Origin: Advenella sp. S44
GTDB taxonomy: Bacteria; Pseudomonadota; Gammaproteobacteria; Burkholderiales; Burkholderiaceae_B
Length of the DNA stretch: 64,000 nt
Assembly: GCF_002810445.1 (NCBI RefSeq)
Contig: NZ_NEXS01000009.1
Location: 186,001 to 250,000 of the forward strand
Direction: 5' to 3'
In this document: positions 1 to 61,192 of the stretch, in pieces
Layout: every line of letters begins with the position of its first letter
Position numbering within the stretch: the stretch's first letter is position 1
Translations under genes and position numbers: made by a program
The notes under the pieces: generated by a model
Database searches by the model: none
Told to the model about the DNA's origin: nothing
The model's input: the letters and a program-made list of their open reading frames with translations, nothing else

Positions 1-2
1 AC

Positions 3-3393: not shown

Positions 3394-3399
3394 TGGTAA

Positions 3400-4116: not shown

Positions 4117-4126
4117 AATACCCTGC

Positions 4127-43286: not shown

Positions 43287-43364
43287 GCGCCCGTAGCTCA
43301 GTTGGATTAGAGTACTTGGCTACGAACCAAGGGGTCGTGGGTTCAAATCCTGCCGGGCGCGCCA
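43287..43364 (+). tRNA. tRNA-Arg (ACG anticodon)
   Basis: The acceptor stem GCGCCCG pairs with CGGGCGC. The anticodon loop CTACGAA carries ACG (edited to ICG in bacteria). GGTTCAAATCC is the T arm, and CCA is encoded at 43362-43364. The integrase gene starts its 3' end about 100 bases downstream, so the 3' end of this tRNA is the likely attachment site of the island. Confidence 0.97.
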
Positions 43365-43373
43365 TTTTACTTA

Positions 43374-43404
43374 GGGTCTCCAGATGGAGGCCTTTTGTTT
43401 TTGC
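43374..43404 (+). terminator. Terminator of tRNA-Arg
   Basis: GGTCTCC and GGAGGCC (one G-T pair) flank AGAT and are followed by T-rich sequence. Confidence 0.65.
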
Positions 43405-43432
43405 ACTATTGAATCGGGTTTGCACTATTGAA
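43400..43432. repeat. Direct repeat TTTGCACTATTGAA, two copies
   Basis: Identical 14-mers at 43400-43413 and 43419-43432, 19 bases apart, lie between the tRNA 3' end and the integrase gene. This is where arm-type integrase sites would be expected. Confidence 0.75.
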
Positions 43433-43468
43433 ATGTGAAAAACACTCGATTTTAGCCCTTACCAAACT

Positions 43469-44593
43469 CTACACCACACCTTTCAGAGGGCCAACGCGCT
43501 CTGGTTTGCGTCGGTAAATCTTATTCGTAGTTCGAGCATCAGCATGCGATAACAGCGCCCTGGCATGCTCAAGTGTGATGGCATCGGAAGCACATTTTGC
43601 ACGCATATCATGTTCAGTAAATCGCTGGGTCACCTTGGTCTCCTTCAGCACTCTTTCCATAAAGCGTTGCCACATACTGTCCCAGCCATCGGTGCTGCCC
43701 GTTTCCTCGTCGATGTAGCCTCTTCCGTACTTGTTACAGAACAACATCGGAGATAGTACCGGCCTCACGAACTTGGCCTGCTCGACAGCGGCTTTCAATT
43801 CCGGCGTCCACTCATAAATGGTTCGTTTGCCGGACGAGTTTTCAGTCTTGTGGCGTTGAATGTGTATGCCATCGTCCTTGATGTGCTCATTGACCCGCAG
43901 GCGCAGCAAATCAGATCTGGCCATACCGGTCATCAATTTGATTCGCATATATGCCTGTATTGCCAACACGCTACCCTTCTTGCGTTGCGATGGCAGCGAG
44001 AGTGCTTCAATAATTTCCCAGTCCTCGATATAACGATCACGCGACAGCTCACCTCGCAGCCTCACTTCACCCTTAAAAGGATGGCGATCCAAGTACCCCC
44101 ATTCTACCGCTTTGGTGAATGCGTGAGATAGCACCTCGATTTCCCGATGCGCCGCCACCCGCCCGCCGGTGACTTTGCGTTTTTCCATACCGGTAAGCTC
44201 GTCTTTGACGACAGTCGTTTTCTTTTTGCTCCGAGCATCAACGTAGCGATAAACGAGCCGAGGCTTCATTCCCGTTATTGACAATTTACCGAAGACGCCA
44301 CGCAACTGTCGTACCCAAATACGTTGCTGTTCGTGCGTACTAACTGCTTTTGTCGGGACCACCTCCAGTAAATATCGGTCCAGCAGGTTATCGATGGAAC
44401 GTACCTCAATATTATGTTCTAGCCTGGCCGCCCAAACTTTGTAGGCCTCCGGCAAGGAAGTGCCGAGACGAAACATTTTCTTTCCGTCCCAAAGAGTTTC
44501 GAGCCCTGGCGGAACCTGATAATAGTAAGCCCCATGATTTAAGCGCCATCTGCTCGGTAACCCTCTATTTTCGGCATTTCGTTTGCGTCCCAT
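43469..44593 (-). CDS. int: Tyrosine recombinase (phage/island integrase)
   Basis: A 374 aa integrase. The catalytic set is visible in the C-terminal half: Arg in LMTGMARSDLLRL, Lys in IQRHKTENSSGKR, HxxR in FTEHDMRAKCASD, His in ALLSHADARTT and Tyr in NKIYRR. An N-terminal arm-binding region precedes it. It points toward the adjacent tRNA-Arg and is coupled to the DUF4224 gene (TAATG overlap). Confidence 0.95.
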   Translation of the reverse strand: MGRKRNAENRGLPSRWRLNHGAYYYQVPPGLETLWDGKKMFRLGTSLPEAYKVWAARLEHNIEVRSIDNLLDRYLLEVVPTKAVSTHEQQRIWVRQLRGVFGKLSITGMKPRLVYRYVDARSKKKTTVVKDELTGMEKRKVTGGRVAAHREIEVLSHAFTKAVEWGYLDRHPFKGEVRLRGELSRDRYIEDWEIIEALSLPSQRKKGSVLAIQAYMRIKLMTGMARSDLLRLRVNEHIKDDGIHIQRHKTENSSGKRTIYEWTPELKAAVEQAKFVRPVLSPMLFCNKYGRGYIDEETGSTDGWDSMWQRFMERVLKETKVTQRFTEHDMRAKCASDAITLEHARALLSHADARTTNKIYRRKPERVGPLKGVV

Positions 44594-44820
44594 TATACGG
44601 CGTCCCAGTTAGGTTCGATTTCGTTTTCATCAGAACTCTTAACCCTATCACCGGCGCCAAAAGCATAATGAATATGGGCGCGTAGCACCGCTATCGAACC
44701 ATCTGGACGAACTCTGTGTTCAATTCCCATGAATCTTAAGGCCCGTAACTGGGCGTCATGCCGAGTACGGTCAGTCAAGCTGATCAGCTCTGACGTTCTT
44801 AAAAATGTTGTTTCTGACAT
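44593..44820 (-). CDS. DUF4224 excisionase-like protein
   Basis: A 75 aa protein with LSELISLTDRTR-type start and ALRFMGIEHRVRPDGSIAVLRAH, the DUF4224 pattern. These sit directly upstream of phage integrases and probably act as excisionase or directionality factors; that function is inferred from position. Its stop overlaps the integrase start. Confidence 0.8.
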   Translation of the reverse strand: MSETTFLRTSELISLTDRTRHDAQLRALRFMGIEHRVRPDGSIAVLRAHIHYAFGAGDRVKSSDENEIEPNWDAV

Positions 44821-45730: not shown

Positions 45731-46235
45731 GCTGTTGTTCTCGATCGTAAATTGGTTTTAATAATTAACTTTTGCTATTGAGTGATCAACAGCATTTGAT
45801 AATATAAGTATTAATAAATCTGGATTTTTACCAAGTTTCAGATCCTCTACGTATCAACCTCTTCAGAAATGAACAAAACTTTGCATGCGTCAAGAAATTA
45901 TCTTATCTAAATCGCTCCCCTACTTAGAGCGGGATCCCCTACCCGTTAACCCCCGACTACAGATACGAGCGAGTATCACGAGGATACACGAGCGCTGAGC
46001 GTCTCACTTCATGATACAAATCAAATAACTTTTAGATACAATTGATGCGAATTGAAATATATCATCCTGTGCTTATAATACCATTACTATCTTAATGTTC
46101 GTTAAATTGTAGGTTTCTGAAAGAGGAAAGTGTCCCACTTTTTCCGTTCAGCAAAATGCCAGGGGAATAGTGTCTTCAGGAATATGGGGGGATCTGTCTC
46201 TGAAAAAAATTTAAAATGCATACTGATTACTTAAA

Positions 46236-46520
46236 TGCGACTATGCCCTTATCGTCGCCCAATGTCAGGGGCGTGGGGTGTCGGTGGCGGCGGTGGCCCG
46301 CCAGTACGATCTGCATCCCTACCTGCTACGTAATTGGGTCCAAGCACATGAGCGCTTTGACAGCCAGAAGGCAGCGCCCGCCGTGCGCTGCGATATCGCG
46401 GCGCAATTCATTCCTGTGCAGGTGGTTCAGCCTAAGACACACTATCAATATGCCTTCTCCCTCAACAAGGCCCGATCTCGATCAAATGGATGCTCCGGCC
46501 TTGAAAAAATTGTTTCTTGA
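46236..46520 (+). pseudogene. IS66-family TnpA remnant
   Basis: The frame from 46236 reads ALIVAQCQGRGVSVAAVARQYDLHPYLLRNWVQAHE, the helix-turn-helix of IS66 TnpA (OrfA), but lacks an N-terminal start. It has no tnpB after it and runs directly into tnpC. Confidence 0.75.
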
Positions 46521-46800
46521 GCTTGAGGCAAAGAGCCAGCAGCTTGCGGCTGAGGTGGCTGCTGCGAGAGAGGTCACGGTGCGGCGTGAGCTGATGATGG
46601 TACGCCAGCAGGATGAGATCCGATTTAAAAATGCCAGGATTGCGCAGCTCACGCACAAGATCCCCGCACTGAAGCGCTATCAGTTCGGCAAAAAAGGAGA
46701 GCAGCTGTCGGGCGTACAAGGTACATTGCTTGAGGAAGCGGTAGGCGAGGACATTGGCGCCATCGAAACCGAACTTGAAATACTGGGTGGCGCTCCTTGA
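46450..46800 (+). pseudogene. IS66-family TnpC, N-terminal fragment
   Basis: 116 aa from MPSPSTRPDLDQMDAP. A coiled-coil region and the RYQFGKKGEQL segment match the N-terminus of IS66 TnpC transposases (about 500 aa). The catalytic DDE part is absent. It stops at 46800, next to an IS3-type relic. Confidence 0.8.
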
Positions 46801-47071: not shown

Positions 47072-47935
47072 TTATGAATAAACTGCATCAAGCACGCCTT
47101 CATATTCTGATTTATGTCTGAATCCATCCAAATAAGCTATACAAAAGCTGGAAAATGGAGCTTGTTTACTCCGCATTTTGCGCAAACGGCAAATGGTTTG
47201 TTCATAAGCGAGGTCGTTGTCTGCATCGCCAGTCTCTAATTTGTTGAAGTACCTCTTTGCAGCTTTAACGTCATTATCAATCAAATCGCGTAATTCTATA
47301 CGGTAACGAACAAAATCTGAATGATTGAGGTTATAAAATGCAATGGATTGGTCTGCGCGCATAAACTTACGAGCATGGCTCTTTTTAGAAAACCGAGGCA
47401 TTGCTTCGCCATCCGGTTTGAATTGTAGTAACAGTACGTCGGTAGCCTTTAAAGGATCTAGCAGTATTGGTTGTTCCGCTTCTAGGTCGCAACCTGGGGT
47501 CTGCGCTCGTATGCTTTCATCACAGAGAGGAAAATGATCGGCTTTACCACCAGTCACTCCAGTCTCGACATCGGTTCGTCGACGGTTAGCGACAATGCAA
47601 CTGTAACGATAATTTTGAAGGTTGAATGCTAACCACCAGTATCCATAATGCTGCTTTGCCGTCGATAGTGTCTCTTGAACACGCTTTTTAGGACGAAAAT
47701 GGTCGACATCGACATCCGTACCCTGCTGAGGAGCCTCTGTGTACCAGCATTTATAGTTGAACAAACGGGCTAATATTGGTTTAACGGCTTTCCAATGATC
47801 CTGATTCTTATCTATGATCTCAGATCGTTGCTCTTCGTCCTGCTCTGCTACCAGTGAATCTAAAAGCTCCTGAGCTTTCTCTTGCCAGCCTTGCGGCAGA
47901 ACAAGCGTATTGAAATCAATGTCTAAGTGCCTCAT
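47072..47935 (-). CDS. HNH endonuclease, Septu PtuB-like, of the hsd operon
   Basis: A 287 aa likely DNA- or RNA-cutting effector. The HNH-type core shows Cys63 in YKCWYTE (61-67), then DVDHFRPKK (76-84) with His79 as probable catalytic residue, and FNLQNYRYSCIVANRRR (104-120) supplying the Asn and a second Cys. This resembles the CxYCE-HFRPK-N pattern of the TIGR02646/PtuB group. It overlaps the ATPase gene by four bases (ATGA), so the pair is co-translated, as in Septu and retron-Septu. It is the last gene of the operon. Confidence 0.8.
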   Translation of the reverse strand: MRHLDIDFNTLVLPQGWQEKAQELLDSLVAEQDEEQRSEIIDKNQDHWKAVKPILARLFNYKCWYTEAPQQGTDVDVDHFRPKKRVQETLSTAKQHYGYWWLAFNLQNYRYSCIVANRRRTDVETGVTGGKADHFPLCDESIRAQTPGCDLEAEQPILLDPLKATDVLLLQFKPDGEAMPRFSKKSHARKFMRADQSIAFYNLNHSDFVRYRIELRDLIDNDVKAAKRYFNKLETGDADNDLAYEQTICRLRKMRSKQAPFSSFCIAYLDGFRHKSEYEGVLDAVYS

Positions 47936-49593
47936 TTGTTGTCTTCTTCCTGTTCAGACGTCAGCATGCGCTGAACGATCTCTTTGGCACGTTCTTTTCG
48001 AACACGTTTAAGTTCTGGTGTTACGTCAACGGCTTCGGTTTCCCGCTCCACCTCTCTACGCATACGCAAATACTGTGCATACTCCTCATCCCAATGAGCC
48101 GTTGTGAAGCCAAGCCCCTCTATTGCTTTATCTATTTTTTTCAAGCGACCAGCCTGAATGAGGGATAATTCCGTTTTTTCCGTAAAACATCGACGCAATC
48201 GCAGCAAACGCTCAGTTGAATTGTCCAGCGTCGTGCGTAAACCAAACATATCACTAGTGAGTATTCCACCATATCCCATGCCTCTGGGACTCTCCTCCGG
48301 TTCCTGTACATGGACTTGAAAATCAGAGTCCCGCCACATCACTTGAACTTGCTGTTTTTCTAATTCAGCAATAGCGAGAGGATGGTGGGTCACCATCAGC
48401 AAATGGCTTGCTTCATGATTGGGCACGAACTCTCGAAGGAATTTCAGGTATTTCACGGCCCATGACGGGTTTAAGTGCGTATCAGGCTCGTCGAGCAAAA
48501 ACAAGGAATCTTCACCACCAGTAAACTTGAGTAGGCCTAGTACAGTCAGTAATTGTTGTTCGCCTTCACTCAGTTCTCGGAAAGTCAGTGGTTCTGGGCT
48601 GCTGGAAACTTTTACCCGAATGCTTACTTCGGAAATAATTTCGGATAGTAGCGTACTTTCGAGCATTTTAAAAAGTTCGTCAGCACTGAGATTTTTAGCG
48701 AAATCGCGCAATGCATCTACACCGGGTAAAAACAAGTGGAAGAACTCATTGCGAATACTACTGCCTGTTAGTGATGTATCTTCTTGGCGTGTTACTTTTA
48801 CAGGAGACACACTATATTTAATTAGCTCGTCAAGAAAACGACGTACGACACCTTTTGCCCCCCAAAACAGCTCACCTTTTTGTTTGGCCCATCCAGGTTG
48901 ACGCATCACAAAATGAATGCTGTCTAGTCCTTCAATGCTTAAGTGTTCTCTCAAAAATGTCTTTTCTGCACTGTCCTGTTCTGATAAGAAAAAGGCAAGT
49001 AGTACGAATTGGCTGTGGTGAGGCTTAGCATAAAATAACGGCCGGATGTCACCTTTTAAATCCAGCTTATCTTCGAGTAACCTACGGTAAAAATCCGTAC
49101 GGTGTTTTTTAAAATGGTTTTCAAGTCGATCGCTAGGTCCTGAGTAGTACGCAAAAACATAGTTAGGCAGGTATGGTGCTTTACCACTTTTATCTCGCTT
49201 AACTTTTGAAAACGGAATGGTCATGCCTGAAGGCAGCTCACCAATGATGTCCTTTGGTGTGTTGTCATTTAAAAGGTCGCGCGCACGTATTTCGTATTGC
49301 TTTGCCAGTGTGCCTCGATCTGGATCGGCATCAATAGTTATTTCCAGCCACCGCTCACTGGGTTGATTGGGCTTATCGCGCTCACCCAATCGATAGATCA
49401 ACTTGTAAGAAAAGGGAGGGGCTTCGCCTAAGTCGAGGTTACGAAATATAACCACCAAGGCTTCGAGAACGTTGGATTTACCGGAACCATTGCGGCCCAC
49501 CACTACGGTCATCAGGTGGTCTTCGTCAAAGTCCACTTTCACGTCTTCAAGATTTTTAAAGCGTGAGCGAATATGCAGTTTGTCGACTTTCAT
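47932..49593 (-). CDS. AAA/ABC-type ATPase (PtuA/RloA-like), restriction-associated
   Basis: A 553 aa SMC/ABC-type ATPase of the AAA_15/AAA_21 class. Walker A is VVGRNGSGKS (31-40), the ABC signature LSEGEQQLL (341-349), Walker B FLLDEPDTHLNP (365-376) and the switch His in VTHHP (401-405). No Toprim or membrane part is seen; a charged helical tail closes the protein. Such ATPases are known as partners of HNH nucleases in Septu (PtuA), and others sit in type I restriction operons (RloA, RloC, PrrC). It lies 25 bases after hsdS and overlaps the HNH gene. Confidence 0.85.
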   Translation of the reverse strand: MKVDKLHIRSRFKNLEDVKVDFDEDHLMTVVVGRNGSGKSNVLEALVVIFRNLDLGEAPPFSYKLIYRLGERDKPNQPSERWLEITIDADPDRGTLAKQYEIRARDLLNDNTPKDIIGELPSGMTIPFSKVKRDKSGKAPYLPNYVFAYYSGPSDRLENHFKKHRTDFYRRLLEDKLDLKGDIRPLFYAKPHHSQFVLLAFFLSEQDSAEKTFLREHLSIEGLDSIHFVMRQPGWAKQKGELFWGAKGVVRRFLDELIKYSVSPVKVTRQEDTSLTGSSIRNEFFHLFLPGVDALRDFAKNLSADELFKMLESTLLSEIISEVSIRVKVSSSPEPLTFRELSEGEQQLLTVLGLLKFTGGEDSLFLLDEPDTHLNPSWAVKYLKFLREFVPNHEASHLLMVTHHPLAIAELEKQQVQVMWRDSDFQVHVQEPEESPRGMGYGGILTSDMFGLRTTLDNSTERLLRLRRCFTEKTELSLIQAGRLKKIDKAIEGLGFTTAHWDEEYAQYLRMRREVERETEAVDVTPELKRVRKERAKEIVQRMLTSEQEEDNK

Positions 49594-49618
49594 GGGTTGC
49601 CATTAACTCTTTACTTTA

Positions 49619-51250
49619 TTAATTATTGGTAGTTGTCTGAGCCAAGGCGAACCAATCTTGGCCATTGTCACTACGCTCAAGCTTAACAATAGATTTTTCG
49701 ATAGCAAGAGCGTTACGAATATCTAGAAAGAACGATTCAAGTTGATCGGTGCTGCTGTCGCTAGGGTAGCCAGCAGTCGCTAACAATTGCTGGCCACTAA
49801 GCGGCTTTCCTGCTATTTTTAACGCTTCAACTACTCTGATTATCTGTTTATTCATACGGCTACCTGTCTTCTCTTTTATATCGGCGCGTTTTGCCTTAGG
49901 TTGTTTTTCACTGGCTTCAAGTTTTGCCTTAATTCTTTCAAGCAAGGCATTGGCACTGTTGTCGCCGCTAATTAAATCAGGGTTGGCAGCACGCCAGTCA
50001 GCAGTGAGCTCACCGCGAAATGCTTTAGCCAGGATGGATTGAGTGAGGTTATTTACTCGATCTAATGCCGCAACAGTATTTTGTTTGATATTATCTGAAA
50101 AAGCGAAAAGTTCATCGATCCGGCTGACTATTTCAGTTTGTTCTAACATTGTTGGAACGCTGATTGGATAGGCTGTAAGTTTTGTAGCATTGATATTTGA
50201 CTGACTTACACCATCAGACTTTACATGATAACAGTAGTCTTTGGCATCCGGGCTATTTAAAAGATAATTCAAAAACTCAGGCTTCAAATTTTCTTTACAT
50301 ATAATTCGGATTAAATAGCCAGCATATATCGCTTCCTTTTCGCCCCGAAAAATTGAGGTTTTACCGACTAATTCGGGGCTATTTGTACGATTAAACAATA
50401 CGTCACCCTCGAAAAGTTTATACTTTTTTATTTCTTCTGGGTCTGAGGTATACGCTAGATTTGTCCAATCTAGCTTACCATCTTGTAAATTACCCATTCT
50501 CAATACGGGGATGAGACCTTCAGGCTGAGATTTAGCCGATGAACCATAAGTTGGCTTTTCAATAAAATCAGCGAGAACCCCATCTTTCCACATACTAAGG
50601 CTCTGTTTATTTAGTTTTCGCCACTCTTCCGTCAACTTTCCACTAATGGCGGCTGTCAGCACTGATTGGCGGAAGGTTTTGAGGATGTCGGGGATGGACT
50701 GGAGCCAGGCTTTGATGGTATCCACTTGTAACAATAGGGAGTCGATTTTGTCAGCAATGACTTTTTGTTCGGCTAGAGGGGGAAGTAGGAACGGTAGCGT
50801 TTTTGCTTTGGCGCTTGAAATTTCCTTAAAGGTAGTACCTGTTCCCAAATTTTCAGCTAAATCCCTTATACTTTTTAAGTAGTAATAAGCATAATCTGAA
50901 TCGACCCCATAGGGAAAAACGAAACTCTTAAACCCTTGATTCGTTGATATTTCGTTTTGTGCAATTGCAACATATCCAATCGGCGCGCGGCTGCTGAACA
51001 ATAAGCTACCTTTCGGCAATATTTTCGCGGAGCTTGAATTGTACCCGTGGTGGCTCAAGTCTCTGGCACCGAAGCTAATATTTTTTTTTGTATAGCCACT
51101 CAGATCCGCTGGTGTTAACCAAGCAATTCCGGTCCCAGGTGCTTTAAAGTTATCAGGGTTACCAGCTTTCGGAGTTCCACCTGCTACAACTTCCGCGACT
51201 TCACCAATTTTTATCTCTATCCAGTTGTATGAATTGACTGAACTCATCAA
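49619..51250 (-). CDS. hsdS: Type I restriction-modification specificity subunit
   Basis: A 543 aa DNA-recognition subunit. Two target-recognition domains with central and C-terminal helical repeats are visible: the first domain (about 10-150) with PLAEQKVIADKIDSLL after it, the second (about 215-370) with LEQTEIVSRIDELFAF, then the repeated SILAKAFRGELT. A tail of about 110 residues (from roughly 430) looks like a winged-helix region (VVEALKIAGKPLSGQQLLATAGY) and is an addition beyond the minimal subunit. It overlaps the hsdM stop (ATGA). Confidence 0.92.
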   Translation of the reverse strand: MMSSVNSYNWIEIKIGEVAEVVAGGTPKAGNPDNFKAPGTGIAWLTPADLSGYTKKNISFGARDLSHHGYNSSSAKILPKGSLLFSSRAPIGYVAIAQNEISTNQGFKSFVFPYGVDSDYAYYYLKSIRDLAENLGTGTTFKEISSAKAKTLPFLLPPLAEQKVIADKIDSLLLQVDTIKAWLQSIPDILKTFRQSVLTAAISGKLTEEWRKLNKQSLSMWKDGVLADFIEKPTYGSSAKSQPEGLIPVLRMGNLQDGKLDWTNLAYTSDPEEIKKYKLFEGDVLFNRTNSPELVGKTSIFRGEKEAIYAGYLIRIICKENLKPEFLNYLLNSPDAKDYCYHVKSDGVSQSNINATKLTAYPISVPTMLEQTEIVSRIDELFAFSDNIKQNTVAALDRVNNLTQSILAKAFRGELTADWRAANPDLISGDNSANALLERIKAKLEASEKQPKAKRADIKEKTGSRMNKQIIRVVEALKIAGKPLSGQQLLATAGYPSDSSTDQLESFFLDIRNALAIEKSIVKLERSDNGQDWFALAQTTTNN

Positions 51251-52791
51251 TTCGTCTCCAAAGCGGCTAGCAATCCGTCGAGCTTACTCAGCGCTGCTTC
51301 CAATTCTTCTTTCGCCTCTCGCGCCAATACATCCGGCTCTGACAAACTGGCTGCATCGACACTGTCTTTATCTTTTAACCAACTGATATCCAGCGAGTCG
51401 CCTTTGGCATTAGCAATCCATTTGCGGCTAAAGCAGCGCCAGCGGGAGTGGGCCAAGCGTTCGTCGATACCCCGATTTTCTTCCGCAGCGTATTTAATGA
51501 CTTCGATATCTTGAACGCCAAAGCTGTATTCACCTTCGGTACGTTTGCTTGTGCCATCGGCGTTTGCACCAAACACCTTTTCAAAGGCACCGAGGTGCGG
51601 ATCAGTGCCGAAGTCTTCTGGAGCAAAGCCAATGTCCGAATTACCAAAGGGCGTACGTTTACCGAAATTGGGCATATTAGTACGCAGATCGTATACCCAG
51701 ATACTCTCAGTACAATTTTCTTCCTGGTATTTATTTCTGGCGGAACCTTTAGTGAAAAACAACACATTAGTTTTAACACCTTGGGCATAAAAAATACCGG
51801 TGGGTAAGCGCAAGATAGTATGCAGGTTGCACTTATTCATTAAGTCTCGGCGCACATCGGTACCGGCACCAGATTCAAATAGCACGTTATCAGGTAATAC
51901 TACAGCAGCCCGGCCACCAGCTTTAAGCCCCAAATAAATATGCTGCAAAAATGCGAGTTGCTTATTTGTATTGGGAAATGGAATATCGTTACGCAAAGGA
52001 CGTTGCCCTCCCGCCTTATTACCAAAGGGAGGGTTAGCTATGATTACATCAGCTTCATCCAATTCAGCTACATCATCAGTCAGTGCATCACCATAAATAA
52101 TATTCGCATCTAAATCATGTAGAAAGGTATTCATTAAGCAAATTCGACGAGTGTTTTTCTCTATTTCCACCCCTTGATATTTAGGAGGATTAGCTTTGTA
52201 TTGTTCTCGTGAAAATTTGTTTCGAATATAGCTGTCAGCAGAAACCAAGAAGCCACCGCTTCCGGTTGCGGGGTCTTGAATTAACTCTCCAAGGCTAGGC
52301 TGTATTAATCTCACTATAGTATTAACTAAAGAGCGTGAAGTGAAGTACTGACCTGCTCCCGAACGAGTATCCTGAGCACTCTTATCAATTAAGCCGCTGT
52401 ATACGTCACCAAATCCATCTTTTCCTACTTGGTGCCACTCTATTTTTGATATGCCATCTATTACAGCTTTTAAATTCTCGGAATGGGAAAAAACAGTTGT
52501 AGGAAATGCATAAATTGCCTTTACAACTTCATTTTCAACAGAAGCACCTAAGTGAGTAAGCATTTCTTGATAAAATCCTAATAGCCCATCTTCCGTATGA
52601 GATTCCAGATCAACCCAGCGATAACCTTTAGGTATCAGCTTTTCTGAACCATTTTCCTGAGCAATTTTAAGAAACAATAGATAGCTTAGTTCAGATACAT
52701 ACTGGTAATAAGTGATCCCATCCCCACGAAGTATGTTACAAAGCCCCCATATCTTTTGAATGATGTTATCTTGCTTCATTAGCAACCCCAT
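51247..52791 (-). CDS. hsdM: Type I restriction-modification N6-adenine methyltransferase
   Basis: A 514 aa methylase subunit. The SAM-binding motif is DPATGSGGFLVSA (173-185). The catalytic motif is NPPFG (253-257), the N6-adenine NPPF type. The N-terminal helical domain (IWGLCNILRGDGITYYQYVSELSYLLFLK) is the usual HsdM_N. A start four codons later (MKQDN) is possible. With hsdS it should form a working methyltransferase. No hsdR is found nearby. Confidence 0.94.
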   Translation of the reverse strand: MGLLMKQDNIIQKIWGLCNILRGDGITYYQYVSELSYLLFLKIAQENGSEKLIPKGYRWVDLESHTEDGLLGFYQEMLTHLGASVENEVVKAIYAFPTTVFSHSENLKAVIDGISKIEWHQVGKDGFGDVYSGLIDKSAQDTRSGAGQYFTSRSLVNTIVRLIQPSLGELIQDPATGSGGFLVSADSYIRNKFSREQYKANPPKYQGVEIEKNTRRICLMNTFLHDLDANIIYGDALTDDVAELDEADVIIANPPFGNKAGGQRPLRNDIPFPNTNKQLAFLQHIYLGLKAGGRAAVVLPDNVLFESGAGTDVRRDLMNKCNLHTILRLPTGIFYAQGVKTNVLFFTKGSARNKYQEENCTESIWVYDLRTNMPNFGKRTPFGNSDIGFAPEDFGTDPHLGAFEKVFGANADGTSKRTEGEYSFGVQDIEVIKYAAEENRGIDERLAHSRWRCFSRKWIANAKGDSLDISWLKDKDSVDAASLSEPDVLAREAKEELEAALSKLDGLLAALETN

Positions 52792-52802
52792 TAATATTCG
52801 AT

Positions 52803-53063
52803 TTATAGTCGAACTTCTTTTACGTCAAGAACCTTCATGCATTGCATAAAAAAAACGAAGCTAAATGTTCCTCTATTAATCTTATTAGCCACACCTTTGT
52901 AACTCTCATTAACACCAATAATTGCTAAGCGTTGGCATAGTTCGGCATAACCGACACCCGCACGTCGCAACTCGGCTTTGAGCAAATTTGAAGCTCGGGT
53001 ATTCAGCGCATCCTTATCGATTGGTATTGCATAATGTGCAAGCATGGATTGATAATAACACAT
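52803..53063 (-). CDS. DUF6471 small protein, first gene of the hsd operon
   Basis: An 86 aa protein. The body (NTRASNLLKAELRRAGVGYAELCQRLAIIGVNESYKGVANKINRGTFSFVFFMQCMKVL) has the DUF6471 pattern, a compact helical domain resembling a helix-turn-helix. It is 11 bases before hsdM and probably a controller (C-protein-like) of the operon; this is inferred from position and fold. A start six codons later is possible. AGAGGA lies upstream. Confidence 0.7.
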   Translation of the reverse strand: MCYYQSMLAHYAIPIDKDALNTRASNLLKAELRRAGVGYAELCQRLAIIGVNESYKGVANKINRGTFSFVFFMQCMKVLDVKEVRL

Positions 53064-53173: not shown

Positions 53174-53539
53174 TAGTAGGTAGATTCAAGCGTCCAGTTG
53201 TGTGGTAACAGTTCGTCGATCCGGCTGGCCGGATGAGTAGGCAAACGTGTCAACACATCCTTGAGGTAGGCATAGGGATCATGACCATTCAAAAGGGGCC
53301 GATTGCATGAGTGTCATAATGGCAGTGGCACGTTTGCCGGCGCGCAGCGACCCGGCGAACAGCCAATTGTTGCGTCCAATCGCAATTGGTCGAATCTTCT
53401 GTTCGATATGATTATTATCAATTGGCAATTGCCCATCGTCCAAATAGCGTGTCAGGGCGATCCCGCGTTTAAGGCTGTAGTCCAGCGCTTTCGCAGTGGC
53501 CGAGTCATCGGGTAACAGGGTAACGCCGCCGGGATGCAT
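53174..53539 (-). pseudogene. IS66-family TnpC, C-terminal fragment with frameshift
   Basis: Reading from 53539, the C-terminal transposase segment TRYLDDGQLPIDNNHIEQKIRPIAIGRNNWLFAGSLRAGKRA is clear. It ends early at SAPFEWS, while the next frame continues NGHDPYAYLKDVLTRLPTHP to a stop at 53174. A frameshift splits the gene and the N-terminal part is absent. It is on the strand opposite to the fragments at 46,236-46,800. Confidence 0.85.
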
Positions 53540-54785: not shown

Positions 54786-55514
54786 TCATTCCTCAACATG
54801 ATCGTGCCCACCGATCCTGCCAGGCCGCCAATAACCTTCGGATGCAATACTCTCTTTTGTAAAACCTCGTTCAATTAGATGATGCCGGACAGATCGCGTA
54901 TTGGAGGTCTCTGCCATCACGATAGCCATGCACGACGGCGGCAAAGTCATCCGGGCGACGTGATCGCGCAACAGATTATTAGGTCCAGGCGGAAGGTCAT
55001 TTCTGAAAATCCAGTCTACACTTACACCAATGTCCAGCACAGGCACTTTCCAGCTTTCATTCTGTACCTCAAGCACTAATTGGATCTGTTGATACTGGTC
55101 TTTTGATTCCGCTATGTGGAGCGCTGCAGGCAACCCTGTTTCATCCGCACAAATCAGATAATTGGTAAAGCCTTCACGCAGCCAGCTTCGACCCCGCGGA
55201 CCCTTTGCTTGCACCTTTTGACCAGACTCAGCATTGCGAGCAAATCGTGGCCCGGCTCCTTCACCATGCATTACAAAATCAATTGAAATTCTGCCCTGCT
55301 CTGTGCGATGACGAATTGTATAGTGACGTCTCCCTAATGTTCCATCTTTTAGCGGTAGCATCAAAACCAAATCCTGCCCCGGTATATAGTCAAAGGCTGC
55401 TGTGTCAAACAGCACACGTCTCATGCCTGTATGCAAATTGAAACTGTCAACTACAGTCAGTTCGTGTGTAGGTAATTCCGGGCGGCGTCGTGGCTGATCG
55501 ATAATTTTATTCAT
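54786..55514 (-). CDS. Siderophore-interacting protein (ferric-siderophore reductase family)
   Basis: 242 aa from the ATG at 55514; a GTG three codons earlier abuts the preceding stop. FAD-binding front domain (GRRHYTIRHR near residue 70), NAD(P)-binding back domain (YLICADETGLPAALHI) and the family ending GYWRPGRIGGHDHVEE are all visible. SIPs reduce Fe(III) in imported siderophores in the cytoplasm to release iron. It is the last gene of the transport operon. Confidence 0.93.
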   Translation of the reverse strand: MNKIIDQPRRRPELPTHELTVVDSFNLHTGMRRVLFDTAAFDYIPGQDLVLMLPLKDGTLGRRHYTIRHRTEQGRISIDFVMHGEGAGPRFARNAESGQKVQAKGPRGRSWLREGFTNYLICADETGLPAALHIAESKDQYQQIQLVLEVQNESWKVPVLDIGVSVDWIFRNDLPPGPNNLLRDHVARMTLPPSCMAIVMAETSNTRSVRHHLIERGFTKESIASEGYWRPGRIGGHDHVEE

Positions 55515-55523
55515 TCGACTCAC

Positions 55524-56189
55524 TCAAAGTTTCACTGAAAAACTCATTCCGCCCTTGCCGAACCCCAGCACAGAAGTCACGAATTGATGTTCAGGCCGAT
55601 TAAGGTATGCGTCAAATCCAGAAGCGGCATTTTCTCGTCGTTCCTCTTCGGAAACCGGAATATTATCTGCAATCACCACGCTACCACCACCCAGGCGTGG
55701 CAATAGCATTTCCAGAATCGGCAAATAAAGCTCATTGGCGCCATCAAGGAACAACAGATCGATTTTCGGCCCATCAACGGCAAGGGTTTCCCTGGCGTCG
55801 CCTGTAAGAATGGTGGCGGCAAGTCCTGCCTCAGCCAGGTTGCGCCGGGCTTTCTCCGCCTTTTCCGGATGAAACTCTGTTCCTGTCACCCTGCCCTTAT
55901 TTTCAGTTGCCGCCGCGGCAAGATACAGAGTAGAAATGCCGAACGAGGTGCCGAACTCGACAATTTCTTGCGCCTTGCACGCCACAGCCTGAGCAAATAG
56001 CCAGCGACCCTGAGTCGGGCCAATAGACAGATAATTTGTCTTATGCATTTCCGAGGTTCGAAAGTCAGGTCGTTGCGGTGACTTTCCCTTGGGTGCAGAG
56101 TTTGCTAAACGTTGTATGCGCTGCGCTTTCGCTGCATTGTGCTCCCGCTCCAGTACTGCAGCAACTTCCGGACTATTTAGTATATTCAT
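55524..56189 (-). CDS. Class I O-methyltransferase (catechol/caffeoyl-CoA OMT type)
   Basis: 221 aa from the ATG at 56189, which has GAGGT five bases upstream. SAM-binding region EIVEFGTSFGISTLYLAAA (from about residue 78). The metal-binding residues of the cation-dependent OMT family appear as LFLDGANELY and VIADN. The family methylates catechols, caffeoyl-CoA and related ortho-diphenols. It lies 11 bases after the transporter ATPase and next to the siderophore reductase, so a catechol siderophore or its product is a plausible substrate; this is inference. Confidence 0.82.
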   Translation of the reverse strand: MNILNSPEVAAVLEREHNAAKAQRIQRLANSAPKGKSPQRPDFRTSEMHKTNYLSIGPTQGRWLFAQAVACKAQEIVEFGTSFGISTLYLAAAATENKGRVTGTEFHPEKAEKARRNLAEAGLAATILTGDARETLAVDGPKIDLLFLDGANELYLPILEMLLPRLGGGSVVIADNIPVSEEERRENAASGFDAYLNRPEHQFVTSVLGFGKGGMSFSVKL

Positions 56190-56200
56190 TTTGACCTCTA

Positions 56201-56953
56201 TTAATCGATTAGTACGACAGGGCAATCCCGTCGAGGATGTGAGATGACACAGACATTCTGGCGGTATACCCGACTGATCAACTCACTCGTCAGAACCTGC
56301 GCAGGCGAACCCTGCGCGACGATACAGCCGCTTTCGAGAAGAATGATCGAGTCAGCATGCGCCGAGGCAAGATTAAGATCATGCAGGACCACGATCACGG
56401 CTGAACCGGCTGTTGCTATACGACGTGCGGACTGCAATACCTTCTCTTGGTGGCGCAAATCCAGCGCAGCGGTGGGCTCATCCAATAGCACGATCGGCGT
56501 ATCTTGTACACGGACGCGTGCAAATGTTGTTCTCGCTTTTTCACCACCGGATAAGGTCTGCGCATTACGATATGCCAAGTGTGCAATCTCAGCTTCCTCC
56601 ATGGCGTGGTCGATCGACTCCTGATCTGCATCGGGAGGGAGTTCCCGAAATGCGCGCCCCATTGCGACGACTTCCTCGACACTGTATCCGAAGCGGATAG
56701 GGGCTCCTTGGGGAAAAACGGAGCGGATCTGAGCAAGTTCACGAATGGTATAGCTCTCGAGAGAACGCCCCAACAGCTCTACACTCCCATAATCCGGCGA
56801 CATATCTCCGGCTAGCACAGAAAGCAGCGTAGATTTACCGGCGCCGTTGGGACCGCACAGTGCGGTAATGGTCTGCGCACCGCAAGATAAACTTACATTT
56901 TTCAATAAAGTTTTGTCCCGAATAGCTAGCGTAACGTTATCAACTTTGATCAC
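56201..56953 (-). CDS. ABC transporter ATPase, siderophore/haem type (FepC/HmuV-like)
   Basis: 250 aa from a GTG at 56953 that overlaps the permease stop by four bases (GTGA); a longer frame to 56995 would sit within the permease gene. Walker A GPNGAGKST (34-42), signature LSGGEKART, Walker B IVLLDEPTAALD and switch His in VVLHDLNLA are visible. It drives uptake with the permease and binding protein. Confidence 0.93.
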   Translation of the reverse strand: MIKVDNVTLAIRDKTLLKNVSLSCGAQTITALCGPNGAGKSTLLSVLAGDMSPDYGSVELLGRSLESYTIRELAQIRSVFPQGAPIRFGYSVEEVVAMGRAFRELPPDADQESIDHAMEEAEIAHLAYRNAQTLSGGEKARTTFARVRVQDTPIVLLDEPTAALDLRHQEKVLQSARRIATAGSAVIVVLHDLNLASAHADSIILLESGCIVAQGSPAQVLTSELISRVYRQNVCVISHPRRDCPVVLID

Positions 56954-58020
56954 TGCTTTTGCCCCATAAATCGGCCGCCACGTCGAATCATCCACAAAAA
57001 GAACGGTCCGCCGAGGGATGCCATGATGACGCCAATAGGGATTTCATTTGGCGGGTCCAGCGTTCTGGCGGCCAGGTCTGCCACCAGCATCAGTAACGCG
57101 CCACCTGCGGCCGAAAATGGGATCAACAATCGGTGTGACGGGCCGATCATCAACCTGAACAAATGCGGAACCACCAGTCCAACAAAGCCGATGGTGCCAT
57201 TGAAGGACACAGCAGCGGCCACCAATAACGCGGTGACAAAGATCAGTTTGCGCCGGAACCGGGTGACGTCCACCCCCAAGTGCCTTGCCTGGCGCTCCCC
57301 AAGTGCGAGCAGGTCCAGCTGACCTGCCCACACCAACAACAGCCAAATACCGATAATCGTTGGCGGAATGGTGATTGCAAGCGTCAGCCATTTTGCCGAG
57401 GCCAGCGAACCCATCGACCAGAACATCAGACTTTGCAACTGCTCTGTCGTAGCCAGATAAGTCAGGTATCCTGCAATTGCACCTGAAATAGCATTGATCG
57501 CTATACCGACCAGAAGCAGCGTCGAACTATCAGCGCCGGCCCGCCCCGGCTTGGCCAACCCATAAATCAGGAAGGTCGTGCCTACCCCGGCCAAAAAGGC
57601 ACCAATGGGCAAGGTCCAGATACCAAAAGTGGAGATCTGCAATACAACTACCGCAATGGCACCTAAAGACGCGCCCGAAGAGACGCCAACCAGACCAGGA
57701 TCAGCCAGCGGATTTCCGAACAAACCTTGCATGGCTGCACCACAGGTCGCCAGACTCGCACCCACTACGACAGCGGTCAAACTTCGTGCCAGCCGCAAAT
57801 CCCAAACAACGGCCGCATTCAGCGCTTCGTCCCGAGAGAGAGCTGACGACGAGAAGCGAGAAGCAAGTCCTGAAAGGACTTCAGTCAAACTCAAAGGGAT
57901 AGCGCCGTTCGCTATCGACAACAGCAACGCCACTGTTAACGACAGAATAACCAGAAGCGCTAAATACGGTATCCGACTTTTGGGCCTGGGCGGTCGTGCA
58001 AACTGGGACGAAACACTCAT
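56950..58020 (-). CDS. Iron-siderophore/haem ABC permease (FecCD family)
   Basis: A 356 aa permease with about ten membrane spans. It shows the FecCD signatures LRLARSLTAVVVGASLATCGAAMQGLFGNPLADPGLVGVSSGASLG and, later, GFVGLVVPHLFRLMIGPSHR. It forms the inner-membrane channel of the transporter. Its start overlaps the binding-protein stop by four bases (ATGA). Confidence 0.95.
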   Translation of the reverse strand: MSVSSQFARPPRPKSRIPYLALLVILSLTVALLLSIANGAIPLSLTEVLSGLASRFSSSALSRDEALNAAVVWDLRLARSLTAVVVGASLATCGAAMQGLFGNPLADPGLVGVSSGASLGAIAVVVLQISTFGIWTLPIGAFLAGVGTTFLIYGLAKPGRAGADSSTLLLVGIAINAISGAIAGYLTYLATTEQLQSLMFWSMGSLASAKWLTLAITIPPTIIGIWLLLVWAGQLDLLALGERQARHLGVDVTRFRRKLIFVTALLVAAAVSFNGTIGFVGLVVPHLFRLMIGPSHRLLIPFSAAGGALLMLVADLAARTLDPPNEIPIGVIMASLGGPFFLWMIRRGGRFMGQKQ

Positions 58021-58919
58021 TTGAAGAGCTCTTTCAAAGCAGCCGCTAGCTGTGCTGAGGCGATCCCGGAAGATGCCGCATCGGCCCGGACATGTAGTTC
58101 GCGCATGATAATCAAATTTTTATGTTCTGCAGCGGGAGTAAAAGCCAGTCCCGGGTAGTCTTCCCAAAACGAATCCATGTTTCCAAAGGAGGAAACTTCA
58201 GCCGCCGATATAATTACCACGTCAGGAGCCATTGCCATAACGCCTTCCGGTGTGATGGGCCGATAACGATCCCTGCCGATTTCAGCTGCGGCATTGAGTG
58301 CCCCGACACGCTCTATCAGGTTGTGAACTGCTGTTTTTGCTCCACCCGCCGTAAAACTGCTCCCTGCTCCCATTTTGGATGCATGCAGAATCCGGATTGG
58401 CCGCCCGTTGATCTGTGGTGCTTTGGCGTCCTGATAATCCTCTTTGATGTTTGCAATCAGTGCTGCCCCGCGCTCTTCTGCGTTCAAATGTTTTGCCATT
58501 CGCGCGACTTTGTCCACTGCGGGAAGCGTGCGATCAATCAAGTCCGTTTCAATTCCGATCGATTTGAGGCCATCAAGCAAGCGCGTGTTGATGACGGAAG
58601 ATCCGATAACAAGACCAGGCCGCAATGCCGCAACACCTTCAACACCGGCCCATTCGCGCATTTTGTTCGGAGTGCCTGAAATACCCGGCAAGTCGATCGG
58701 ATCTGGTCGCGCCAGTATCCGGTCCGCAGCTCCCAATGCAACCGCCACTTCGACAAGATCTGCGCCAAGCAGAACCAGATCGCGAGGCGATTTGACAGCA
58801 AGACTTTCCGGCTTATAGAGTTGCGGATATGCAGGCGCTTTGGACAGGTCAATTACCTTCGCATTTCCTGCAATAGGCAGGCAAATAACGATCAAAGCGA
58901 TCAAAGCAGAACGAAACAT
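58017..58919 (-). CDS. Periplasmic siderophore/haem-binding protein
   Basis: 300 aa from the ATG at 58919 (a TTG two codons earlier is also open). The signal peptide ends at IAGNA. The helical-backbone binding-protein fold of the FepB/HmuT group is suggested by LLGADLVEVAVALGAADRILARPDP, LRPGLVIGSS and TPEGVMAMAPDVVIISA. The ligand cannot be decided from sequence; the linked receptor favours a siderophore. Confidence 0.88.
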   Translation of the reverse strand: MFRSALIALIVICLPIAGNAKVIDLSKAPAYPQLYKPESLAVKSPRDLVLLGADLVEVAVALGAADRILARPDPIDLPGISGTPNKMREWAGVEGVAALRPGLVIGSSVINTRLLDGLKSIGIETDLIDRTLPAVDKVARMAKHLNAEERGAALIANIKEDYQDAKAPQINGRPIRILHASKMGAGSSFTAGGAKTAVHNLIERVGALNAAAEIGRDRYRPITPEGVMAMAPDVVIISAAEVSSFGNMDSFWEDYPGLAFTPAAEHKNLIIMRELHVRADAASSGIASAQLAAALKELFK

Positions 58920-59056
58920 TATCAAAATCCGGTAATAGAAGAAAATTGGGAAAATCCCTGGTCGAAATACGGTTTTCAGATGTAGTACTATGAAATCTCA
59001 GCATTCCAATATGGATGTGCGAGCGTGCGACATCAGTCCCGATTTCAAAATATTGC

Positions 59057-61033
59057 TTAAAACTCCATTGATACGCCTGCGTAGTATCTTCTTCCGTCAA
59101 GTGTTTTCCCGTAGGACTCACTATTCACCTTTTTGTCCAATACGTTGTACACAGCCAAATACCCGCTAACATGACGATTGAACCGGTATGTCAAACCTGT
59201 GTCCACCAGGGCATATGAAGGAATCCGATCTTCACCACCGTCTATCGTGTCGCTTTTAAATTTGAACTTTCCCCAGACACCCAGCACGTCATTCGGTTTC
59301 CAGTCCAGGCTTACGTTAAACATATGACGAGGAGTGTTGTTAAGCGGTTTCCCCATATTCTGACCACTAGTGATCTCACTATCAGAATAGGTGTAGTTTG
59401 TCGTTAATGCGACGGGTCCCAAAGGCATACCAAAGGTCGCCTCTATACCTTGCAAGGTGGCGGAATCCAGATTTGTGTATTGTTGGATGCTATATCGCGT
59501 TTGCCCGTTGTATGTGCATGATGGCGCAGCCCCTTCGGGTGTATTGCAAATATATTCTTTGTCAATCTTGTCCTTGAATCGAGTATGGTACGCCATCACG
59601 CCAAAATTGATAGATTCCGGACTGCTCCAAGCAAAGCCGACCTCGTAGTTGGTGCTGCTTTCGGGCTTAAGATCTGAGTTCCCCATGTCCCACGAACGTC
59701 CTCTGCCCGCTTGCTCAACGATGCTATCATCGGCTTGTTTCAACGTTGGTGTTTTGAAGCCCCCGCTCACGCCGCCCTTGAAGACAAGATTATCATTCCA
59801 GTGGTAAACGCCATATAAGCGTGGCGTGATGTGGTTGCCATAGTGCTCGTTTTTGTCAAAGCGTACGCCTGTAGTCAGTGAAAAATTGTCGGTCAGACTG
59901 TATTCATCCTCAGCGAAGACAGCAGCTTGCCACCTGGTCAAATTTAATGCTTTTGAGCCAGGAAAACGGTTCGCATCGTGGTCAGTTTCTTCCTGCTTGA
60001 ACTCGGCACCGACCGAGACCATATGGCGATCTAGTGAAATAAGAGACTTGGTGTTAAATACCGTCGATTCGTATTTGGAAAAATTTGAATCGTTGTTGAT
60101 TTTGACGTTTTCCCTTTGCAGATACGTTTTTGTTGAGTTATGGTCTCCCCATTTCCAATCATGAGTCAGCCCATAAGTAACGCGCTCATTGTCCATTCCA
60201 CTGGGGGTGCCCGATTTTTCAGTGCGCACGTTGTCGGTGGTTGTACGGCCCGCTTCGAATCTAAGACTATGATTTGGATCAAGAATCCAATCCAGTCTTG
60301 CATTGTTACTCAAAATGCGCTGCTTCGCATATCCCGACTCAATTTCGTCTTCTTGACGCTGGTAGCGAGTGCCATAAACCGTTAATCCGAGCCTGTTTTT
60401 AATTAACGGTCCGCTCAAATAATATTTGCCCTGATAAGAATTGCCTGAATCCGAGTGCTGTTGGAGCGTGCCATCCAGTGTTAGGTTACCCGTCCATTCG
60501 TCCGTCACTTTTTTGGTGATCACATTAATTACACCACCTAGAGCACTGGAGCCATATAGCGATGACATGGGCCCGCGAATAACCTCAATTCGCTCAATCG
60601 CTGAAACCGGCGGTAGCCAATTGACTTGCGCACCGCCGCCAAAACCGTTGTAATATGCCTCAGATGACGCGCCCAGCGGTTTGCCGTCCTCCATAAATAA
60701 GACATAATCTTCACCCATTCCGCGAATCGTTACGTTCGTGCTTTCGAGTTTTCCTCCCGCACCGCCTTCGATGGACACACCAGGAACGTCTCCCAGCGCA
60801 TCGGTGATATTCCGGTATGATTTGCCTTCCAAATTTTCTTTTGGAATAACTGTAATGGTAGCCGGGGCATCGGCCACCATCTGTTCGAAGCCCGACGCTG
60901 TCACGACGATATCGGAGAGCGTCGTAACATGATCTTCTTGCGCCTGGACAGAAAAGCTCGATAGGATAAAAATGGCCCCCGTCTGAGTGGCACGCCAAAT
61001 ATGGCGCATTGAAGCCTGACGACAAATAATCAT
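59057..61033 (-). CDS. TonB-dependent siderophore receptor (CirA/IrgA-like)
   Basis: A 658 aa outer-membrane receptor. The signal peptide (start 61033, alternative 61009) is followed by a TonB box like SDIVVTASGF. The plug domain carries PGVSIEGGAGGKLESTNVTIRGMGEDYVLFMEDG, and the barrel ends with the aromatic YYAGVSMEF. The barrel segment FKTPTLKQADD then NSDLKPE matches catecholate receptors; the haem-receptor FRAP/NPNL signature is not seen in that exact form. About 130 bases separate it from the transporter genes, which continue in the same direction. Confidence 0.93.
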   Translation of the reverse strand: MIICRQASMRHIWRATQTGAIFILSSFSVQAQEDHVTTLSDIVVTASGFEQMVADAPATITVIPKENLEGKSYRNITDALGDVPGVSIEGGAGGKLESTNVTIRGMGEDYVLFMEDGKPLGASSEAYYNGFGGGAQVNWLPPVSAIERIEVIRGPMSSLYGSSALGGVINVITKKVTDEWTGNLTLDGTLQQHSDSGNSYQGKYYLSGPLIKNRLGLTVYGTRYQRQEDEIESGYAKQRILSNNARLDWILDPNHSLRFEAGRTTTDNVRTEKSGTPSGMDNERVTYGLTHDWKWGDHNSTKTYLQRENVKINNDSNFSKYESTVFNTKSLISLDRHMVSVGAEFKQEETDHDANRFPGSKALNLTRWQAAVFAEDEYSLTDNFSLTTGVRFDKNEHYGNHITPRLYGVYHWNDNLVFKGGVSGGFKTPTLKQADDSIVEQAGRGRSWDMGNSDLKPESSTNYEVGFAWSSPESINFGVMAYHTRFKDKIDKEYICNTPEGAAPSCTYNGQTRYSIQQYTNLDSATLQGIEATFGMPLGPVALTTNYTYSDSEITSGQNMGKPLNNTPRHMFNVSLDWKPNDVLGVWGKFKFKSDTIDGGEDRIPSYALVDTGLTYRFNRHVSGYLAVYNVLDKKVNSESYGKTLDGRRYYAGVSMEF

Positions 61034-61082
61034 TTTCGCTCACATAGAAGTATTAAAAGTGTCGTAAATTTGCATTAATTAG

Positions 61083-61106
61083 AAATACGACTCATTATCG
61101 TTACAA
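61083..61106. promoter_or_regulatory. Possible Fur box upstream of the receptor
   Basis: On the minus strand GATAATGAGTCG resembles part of the GATAATGATAATCATTATC consensus; only the first half matches well. Confidence 0.35.
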
Positions 61107-61192
61107 TTTATATTTTTATACTATTCTATTAACCTGACCAAAACCTGACCAAGCCAAAGAGCGATAAATGATGAGTGAATGACGGTAAACCG

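Follow-up and report, generated by a model that had tools for sequence, protein, structure and literature searches.

Association of a type I HsdM-HsdS pair with Septu PtuA-PtuB in Advenella sp. S44: a candidate defence system without HsdR

A 64,000-nucleotide stretch of the Advenella sp. S44 genome (assembly GCF_002810445.1, contig NZ_NEXS01000009.1, positions 186,001 to 250,000; the 'window', within which coordinates are counted) contains an operon in which hsdM and hsdS, the methyltransferase and specificity genes of a type I restriction-modification (RM) system, are followed by genes for an ATPase and an HNH nuclease that, judged by profile matches, are a Septu PtuA-PtuB pair (PtuAB), and from which hsdR, the gene for the restriction subunit, is missing. 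HsdMS and PtuAB are apparently linked through a winged-helix tail on HsdS, and the operon probably encodes an anti-phage device in its own right and not a defective restriction system. It is proposed, with a probability of about 0.45, that HsdM, HsdS, PtuA and PtuB act as a single defence complex, with PtuAB as its effector and no need for HsdR.

The operon and its relatives

The five genes of the operon are intact and lie on the reverse strand at 47072-53063 in the order DUF6471-hsdM-hsdS-ptuA-ptuB (Table 1), separated or joined, in this order, by a gap of 11 bases, an overlap of 4, a gap of 25 and an overlap of 4, in agreement with a sequence-only reading of this DNA that had treated them as one unit with gaps or overlaps of at most 25 bases. 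The same reading had called the methylase-specificity operon fused to the ATPase-HNH pair, which is incorrect, as all are separate genes; its description of intact HsdM motifs, a two-domain HsdS, Walker and ABC motifs and an HNH core was confirmed by Pfam, PADLOC and residue conservation, and its comparison of the pair to Septu is upheld by the PADLOC scores of both proteins. The window HsdM carries the motifs DPATGSGGF and NPPF. In PtuA, Walker A, the signature LSEGEQQ and Walker B (LLDEPD) vary little or not at all across 22 relatives, and its profile matches in the Protein Data Bank (PDB) include PtuA (8ee4), the ATPases of retrons I-A, Ec78 and Ec83, and AriA, as well as Rad50 and SMC, which places it in the ABC ATPase superfamily. 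PtuB is invariant across 21 relatives at C63-W64-Y65, E67, D78-H79, P82-K83, N108 and R110; a Pfam scan assigned it to no family, and its PDB profile matches, to PtuB of retron I-A and Ec78, are weak (best E 7.2e-5). For the predicted PtuB model (mean pLDDT 72.7, below 50 in and after the HNH core), the top fold matches are PtuB or HNH chains from the Ec78 and IA retrons and from Septu, none of them reaching E 0.001. The DUF6471 protein, in which a helix-turn-helix is visible by eye, is likely the operon regulator, and its gene also lies immediately upstream of hsdM in two related loci (L003 and L029; L and G numbers are our handles for loci and genomes). Kinship to the RM repressor RptR (available text of PMC12255303) was considered for it; no convincing solved-structure match was found (best E 0.06, to a D-Ala-D-Ala ligase).

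Septu usually consists of two genes alone, and this is not the arrangement found here. Searching a genome collection with PtuA yielded 23 loci, and hsdS lies directly upstream of ptuA in every one of them; hsdM is present in 21 (the contigs of L004 and L019 end inside hsdS) and ptuB in 22 (L014 ends inside ptuA). This PtuA clade was thus not seen without hsdMS among the 23 loci, contrary to the outcome that the sequence-only reading had named as speaking against it, an ATPase-HNH pair that occurs on its own in most genomes. The genes stay together through rearrangement, since two plasmids and four viral-collection contigs (L032, L033, L036-L039, of which L037 and L038 look like one sequence) have the order hsdS-ptuA-ptuB-hsdM; three of the four viral-collection contigs have a weak HsdR-like match upstream. 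One further plasmid (L031) reads hsdR-Abi-hsdM-hsdS-ptuA-ptuB.

Five loci with distant PtuA proteins were also opened, three from partial 39-40% matches in Shewanella and two from distant matches in samples of the Advenella class and relatives. L081, L082 and L085 contain an HsdR-like gene, hsdM, hsdS, ptuA and ptuB in that order, but belong to other type I families (PtuA at 30-33%; HsdM 29-37% identical to the queries; the HsdR-like gene of L081 is split in two frames). The distant ptuA therefore follows hsdM-hsdS in all three loci with upstream sequence, L083 and L084 lying at contig starts, and the link between this PtuA branch and type I systems is wider than the window clade, usually with hsdR present.

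PtuA itself is too rare for counting in the Advenella class (369 genomes sampled) or its relatives (61 genomes), as each sample gave two matches, the Advenella genome and one at 37-40% identity, and a phage collection contained no PtuA at E <= 1e-20. When HsdM was the query, 10 of 5,426 Escherichia coli genomes were found to encode it at full length (12 records were 80-90% identical to the hsdM gene, two of them partial matches outside this count); nine of the 10 are exactly the nine genomes with PtuA, and the PtuAB of the tenth, MB06233, is divergent (PADLOC 1001.8 and 346 bits). No annotated hsdR was seen within 5.7 to 8.0 kb upstream of hsdM in the four of these 10 regions that were opened. 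Among 392 genomes of the Trabulsiella family, HsdM at E <= 1e-180 matched three, namely the source of L020, G738 (61% identity, with hsdR and another ATPase pair) and G643 (78% over residues 3-399 and 65% overall, the protein being shorter; no hsdR), and in 227 Vibrio genomes the sole match was that of L003 itself.

The hsdR gene, the HsdM lineages and the C-terminal domain of HsdS

The absence of hsdR, noted earlier for the window, extends to the genome, where searches revealed no full-length HsdR. Neither a type IB HsdR query (at E <= 1e-10) nor EcoEI_R_C had a match there; a single partial HSDR_N match (37.8 bits, over the cut-off) fell in a 368-amino-acid (aa) frame on another contig, which was rejected as HsdR because it is too short. 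The proposed count of hsdR across relatives shows that both states are common: it is part of the locus in 11 of the 23 (L005-L009, L011-L014, L016, L024) and missing from nine (L003, L010, L015, L017, L018, L020-L023), with three contigs (L002, L004, L019) on which its state could not be judged. The genome-wide HsdR searches covered the Advenella and collection genomes, E. coli and plasmid hosts being outside their scope, and left the query unmatched in eight of the nine genomes with hsdR-less loci; in the ninth, that of Providencia (L023), there is a single partial match, to a helicase at 33%. In each of the 11 loci hsdR lies upstream of hsdM, in most with a Fic gene between them; it is broken or interrupted in L014 and L016, and in L008 it begins at the edge of the sequence retrieved and is separated from fic by other genes. 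No hsdR was seen immediately after the HNH gene in the loci examined, an arrangement that, in the sequence-only reading, would have marked the window copy as truncated, and we therefore rejected this placement of the locus's own hsdR; the second hsd locus that starts about 6 kb beyond ptuB in L009 is separate. The SoFic-like Fic protein between hsdR and hsdM occurs in many type IB loci (L005, L007, L008, L011, L013, L014 and others), with or without PtuAB, and in L031 the Abi protein occupies its place.

A maximum-likelihood tree of HsdM with 39 rows placed 12 hsdR-less loci on one branch with support 100/100, comprising the window, Vibrio, Enterobacter, Lelliottia, Acinetobacter, Trabulsiella, Providencia, a Pseudoalteromonas plasmid and four E. 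coli. Two Pseudomonas loci and one from Undibacterium make up a second hsdR-less branch (support 100/98), and there are two singles, a Vibrio plasmid and Shewanella G543. The hsdR label requires four changes on this tree, a number not reached or undercut in any of 500 shuffles (0/500), and we read these changes as probable losses. Some limits belong to the tree itself: it omits the truncated L002, L004 and L019, the divergent or rearranged L032, L033 and L036-L041, and L063, L079 and L080; the hsdR-less label of L030 is taken from the plasmid alone and that of L029 from 1.1 kb upstream of hsdM; according to a warning from the program, the 12-row clade and L073/L074 both have long branches that may be falsely joined; and because most rows entered through PtuA, the tree cannot give the frequency of hsdR-less HsdM without PtuAB. 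PtuA is not congruent with it, as L005 and L006 have PtuA 85-86% like that of the window, yet an hsdR-type HsdM of about 50% identity, so that, in this sample of sequences, the presence of hsdR appears to track HsdM rather than PtuA.

One locus preserves the trace of a loss. In Shewanella G543, hsdR is cut to its last 77-79 codons, directly upstream of full-length fic-hsdM-hsdS-ptuA-ptuB, meaning that hsdR was lost in place while PtuAB was retained. No hsdR remnant was found at E <= 0.1 in the 18 other stretches searched, the window among them.

The ratio of nonsynonymous to synonymous substitution rates (dN/dS) is low for hsdM, ptuA and ptuB. Comparing the window with L003 and L029, it is 0.09-0.11 for hsdM and ptuB, 0.29 for hsdS and 0.26-0.33 for DUF6471, and it is 0.03 for ptuA against L003, with dS near saturation. 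Within the hsdR-less clade, median pairwise identity is 85% for HsdM and 73% for the HsdS tail described below, and it falls to 24% and 19% for the two target domains of HsdS. Such hypervariable domains indicate that target specificity is still exchanged without HsdR, which in turn suggests PtuAB as the user of this specificity; changing targets would seem to pay in the absence of HsdR, and a mere decoy would not need to do so.

The best PADLOC model, Specificity_I, spans residues 9-454 of the 543 in the window HsdS, leaving a tail of about 85 residues that is conserved in alignments of PtuAB-linked HsdS and has no convincing Pfam match (best E 0.037 in any member). Beyond the last conserved HsdS repeat, 26 of 31 PtuAB loci have a tail of 112-137 aa, compared with 39-48 aa in all six Shewanella hsd loci without a PtuA-like ATPase. 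Tails could not be measured in the other five of the 31, as the motif fell on the first HsdS repeat in L003, L020 and L023 (giving tails of 337-379) and was absent from L022 and L073; the lack of a PtuA-like ATPase in the six was established by tblastn, genome searches and Pfam scans of 10 downstream open reading frames (ORFs), one of which, in L067, revealed an AAA-type ATPase of another family. The tail was found in two of 72,556 plasmids, which are the two with PtuA of at least 77% identity (an HsdM relative at E <= 1e-80 was detected in 54); in nine of the 5,426 E. coli genomes, the same nine as PtuA; and in four of 129 Shewanella genomes, the four with PtuA of at least 81% (this HsdM is present in 16 and a PtuA-like ATPase of some kind in 11). 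Three Shewanella with PtuA of 46-56% have HsdS proteins of 522-586 aa with divergent tails, of which only that of G473 was weakly matched by the tail profile.

AlphaFold2 predicted the tail as a confident winged helix (H-H-H-E-E, mean pLDDT 82.9), and among its first 32 Foldseek matches, all of them weak, nine (ranks 2, 6, 10, 11, 12, 26, 27, 30 and 32) belong to SMC-kleisin complexes (ScpA-SMC, cohesin, condensin, MukBEF). The titles of four of these entries mention a kleisin C-terminal domain bound to an SMC head, and we infer that the remaining ones are the same kleisin domain. Kleisin winged helices sit on ABC-type ATPase heads. A kleisin-like docking of PtuA on the HsdS tail may thus be taken as a lead from these models.

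The effector position behind hsdS also varies. The PtuA C-terminus and the type of PtuB covary among relatives, in that rows with a window-like PtuB (78-84%) have one common PtuA C-terminus and other rows differ, and five loci (L063, L070, L074, L079, L080) have other ABC ATPases with partners of 355-375 aa at the PtuAB position, the partners being PDC-M01B/M62B-like in L063, L074 and L079. Together, these gene comparisons suggest an exchangeable effector cassette behind hsdS.

Genomic setting of the operon

The operon is probably located on an acquired island, as its G+C content drops from about 55% to 42-47% and it adjoins a tRNA-Arg gene with an integrase and an IS66 remnant (Table 1). The integrase and tRNA-Arg are the probable edge of this island; positions 43287-44820, with the tRNA gene, the tyrosine integrase and then a small possible excisionase recognised by eye, look like its left border, and no second copy (attR) of the tRNA-Arg end was found anywhere in the window. 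The two IS66-like fragments, one of them recognised by eye only, flank the operon in opposite orientation, as if a composite element had carried it. A haemin/iron uptake cluster (ABC transporter, TonB receptor, two-component system; ORFs read at 54786-63188) lies beside the operon. Elsewhere, the Vibrio metschnikovii operon (L003) has Tn7-like TniB and TniQ/TnsD genes immediately upstream, at 1-5700 of that locus, and looks like Tn7 cargo, and plasmid L029 has a TnsA-domain gene near the operon.

Table 1. Features of the operon and its surroundings in the window
Feature	Position	Strand	Evidence
DUF6471 small protein gene	52803-53063	-	Pfam PF20075, 93.4 bits
hsdM, N6-adenine methyltransferase subunit, hsdR-less clade	51247-52791	-	Pfam N6_Mtase 234.5 bits and HsdM_N; motifs
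hsdS, two target recognition domains and C-terminal extension	49619-51250	-	Methylase_S in two stretches; TTG start
HsdS C-terminal winged-helix domain, proposed PtuA dock	49622-49879	-	Alignments, AlphaFold2, co-occurrence with close PtuA, tail lengths
ptuA, ABC-type (OLD-like) Septu ATPase	47932-49593	-	PADLOC PDLC00293, 703.9 bits; Pfam AAA_21
ptuB, HNH (His-Me) nuclease	47072-47935	-	PADLOC PDLC00330, 348.1 bits
IS66 transposase C-terminal remnant, upstream of operon	53279-53539	-	Pfam DDE_Tnp_IS66, 70.7 bits
ORF beyond ptuB, IS66-like by eye only	46216-46800		No Pfam match
Tyrosine integrase beside tRNA-Arg	43469-44593	-	Phage_integrase 26.9 bits, just below cut-off 27.1
tRNA-Arg (ACG)	43287-43364		tRNA search

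Proposed mechanism, alternatives and relation to known systems

In the proposed complex, HsdM2S would methylate host sites and recognise the target sequence, the C-terminal winged helix of HsdS would dock PtuA much as kleisin winged helices cap SMC heads, and PtuA would hold the HNH nuclease PtuB latent. When HsdMS meets an unmethylated, and hence foreign, target, PtuA would switch with its ATP cycle and PtuB would then cut nucleic acid, either the invading DNA or, as in other PtuAB systems, tRNA, so that the phage is stopped. Docking, trigger and substrate differ in standing: that the proteins form a docked unit is quite likely, whereas the trigger is put forward tentatively, at slightly less than even odds, and the substrate may be either of those named. 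To our knowledge, the trigger of Septu is an open question. Slightly more tentative is the broader suggestion of a methylation-gated defence class, in which HsdM2S as a sensor of self and non-self would carry the Septu pair on a kleisin-like HsdS helix, with no HsdR motor, an exchangeable effector and fast-evolving targets.

Several observations weigh against this proposal. In 11 of the 23 close PtuA loci, and in L081, L082 and L085, PtuAB is accompanied by hsdR or an HsdR-like gene, which makes its ancestral role an accessory one and suits a guard just as well. The PtuAB proteins of retron-Eco7 (PMC11555353) and Septu EcB88 (PMC13096335) cleave tRNA-Tyr according to the available text of these papers, which indicates abortive infection rather than classical restriction; DNA cutting is credited to earlier Septu work in that of PMC11555353. 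The hsdR-less G643 has another ATPase and a PDC-M01B/M62B-like partner in place of PtuAB, so the effector is exchangeable. The agreement between PtuA and tail counts holds for close relatives only: L031, with a PtuA of 42%, has a dissimilar HsdS C-terminus that the tail did not match by BLAST, and the ATPase-bearing L063, L070 and L080 have short tails of 44-47 aa (those of L074 and L079 are long); not every ATPase of this kind therefore needs the tail. The resemblance to kleisins falls short of significance, with no match at E <= 1e-3, and winged helices are common. Finally, the exact motif DPATGSGGF was found in four of five HsdM proteins tested and not in that of L020.

A guard model is, in our view, nearly as likely as the proposed methylation-triggered effector. 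Intact HsdMS would silence PtuAB through the HsdS winged helix until a phage anti-restriction protein or DNA damage frees it, whereupon PtuB would cut tRNA or DNA and the infection would abort, HsdMS serving as bait in hsdR-less loci. There are precedents: PrrC, which belongs to a type I locus, becomes active once Stp inhibits EcoPrrI, and the AriA-AriB pair of PARIS fires on Ocr (both from the available part of PMC12707154). PtuA is related to AriA, the co-occurrence of PtuAB with hsdR in 11 of 23 loci is what an add-on guard predicts, other ATPase pairs sit at the same position in related loci, and the tRNA-Tyr cleavage by retron-Eco7 PtuAB is in keeping. A bait, however, needs neither methylation nor changing targets, whereas the window HsdM has intact motifs and the HsdS targets are hypervariable in the hsdR-less clade. 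Of the two roles that the sequence-only reading had offered for PtuAB, replacement of HsdR and guarding of HsdMS, both therefore stay in contention, with the provision that PtuAB is not only an HsdR replacement, given the relatives that have both.

The other explanations fare worse. It is improbable that Septu and a solitary HsdMS methylase share an operon by chance: although Septu EcB88 consists of PtuA and PtuB and depends on the activities of both for immunity (available text of PMC13096335), the gene order is kept in 23 loci and the genes stay together where it differs, the HsdS tail was found only with close PtuA, and the window copy has 4-base overlaps. Still more improbable is a decayed type I system that lost hsdR through nearby insertion sequence (IS) events, with the remainder not yet eroded, as had been suggested from the IS beside the HNH gene. 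An IS66 remnant does adjoin the operon and G543 does carry an hsdR scar, but the 12-locus HsdM clade (support 100/100) stands in different flanks without hsdR, no remnant was detected in the 18 other stretches and dN/dS is low; simple truncation by IS was rejected in view of the clade and the remnant search. Least probable of all is an unrelated or undetected restriction subunit serving HsdMS-PtuAB in trans, for which only the 368-aa HSDR_N frame speaks and which the empty HsdR and EcoEI_R_C searches of the Advenella genome, together with the eight other unmatched hsdR-less genomes, led us to reject.

Compared with known systems, the proteins combine features of several. HsdM and HsdS are like those of type IB (EcoEI-like) RM systems, and the hsdR of relatives bears EcoEI_R_C; the N6-methyltransferase motifs and two-target HsdS of type I RM are present, but no full-length HsdR translocase-nuclease was detected in the genome. 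The ATPase and HNH families and their order are those of Septu (type I in PADLOC), with complete PtuA ABC motifs, but the pair is attached to hsdMS with a winged helix on HsdS. Retron type I-A, or Septu type II (Ec78/Eco7), likewise couples a PtuAB effector to a nucleic-acid-binding partner, which is the reverse transcriptase (RT)-msDNA there and HsdMS here; no reverse transcriptase family was found among 10 proteins scanned in and around the operon, and the NCBIfam models for retron Ec78 PtuA and PtuB scored below their cut-offs (52.1 of 500 and 32.9 of 150 bits). The restriction-associated AAA ATPase family mentioned in the sequence-only reading does exist (restrict_AAA_1, TIGR04435), but the window PtuA falls below its cut-off (146.7 of 300 bits). 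Models MAD2, MAD3 and MAD5 of the methylation-associated defence system (MADS) match HsdM, PtuA and HsdS, far below the NCBIfam cut-offs (86.3 of 720, 30 of 420 and 23.6 of 400 bits), and we know of no PtuB in MADS. PrrC/EcoPrrI and PARIS likewise tie an ABC ATPase and a nuclease to restriction or its inhibitors, as far as the available text of PMC12707154 goes, but PrrC is a single ATPase-anticodon-nuclease protein in a complete hsd locus, whereas here the HNH protein is separate and hsdR absent, and PARIS has the TOPRIM nuclease AriB where the partner here is the HNH protein PtuB, AriA being only a weaker ATPase match.

The general idea is already in print: Krishnan (2020, NAR 48:10045; cited in the available part of PMC12839542) reportedly described OLD-ABC ATPases that are paired with a range of nucleases in systems resembling RM, and that work may list this specific operon. 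The accessible portion of the PADLOC paper links Septu to retrons and Hma, not to HsdMS, and PADLOC would presumably call Septu here, since both proteins match its Septu models. No description of HsdMS-PtuAB was found in the open-licence PMC literature, in which co-mention of PtuA, HsdM and HsdS concerns, in the text available, retrons and PrrC. As far as this literature was searched, the new elements are the winged helix of HsdS, the stable lineage without hsdR and the hypervariable target domains.

Type I methylases without hsdR are easily dismissed as decay, and here one is tied to Septu by a specific domain, the HsdS winged helix. If the proposal is true, the recognition part of a type I system can work through an effector that is not HsdR, and PtuAB gains a sequence-specific, methylation-sensitive sensor that is comparable with the RT-msDNA of retrons. 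In that case, tools that call 'Septu plus orphan methylase' at such loci would overlook a methylation-controlled system.

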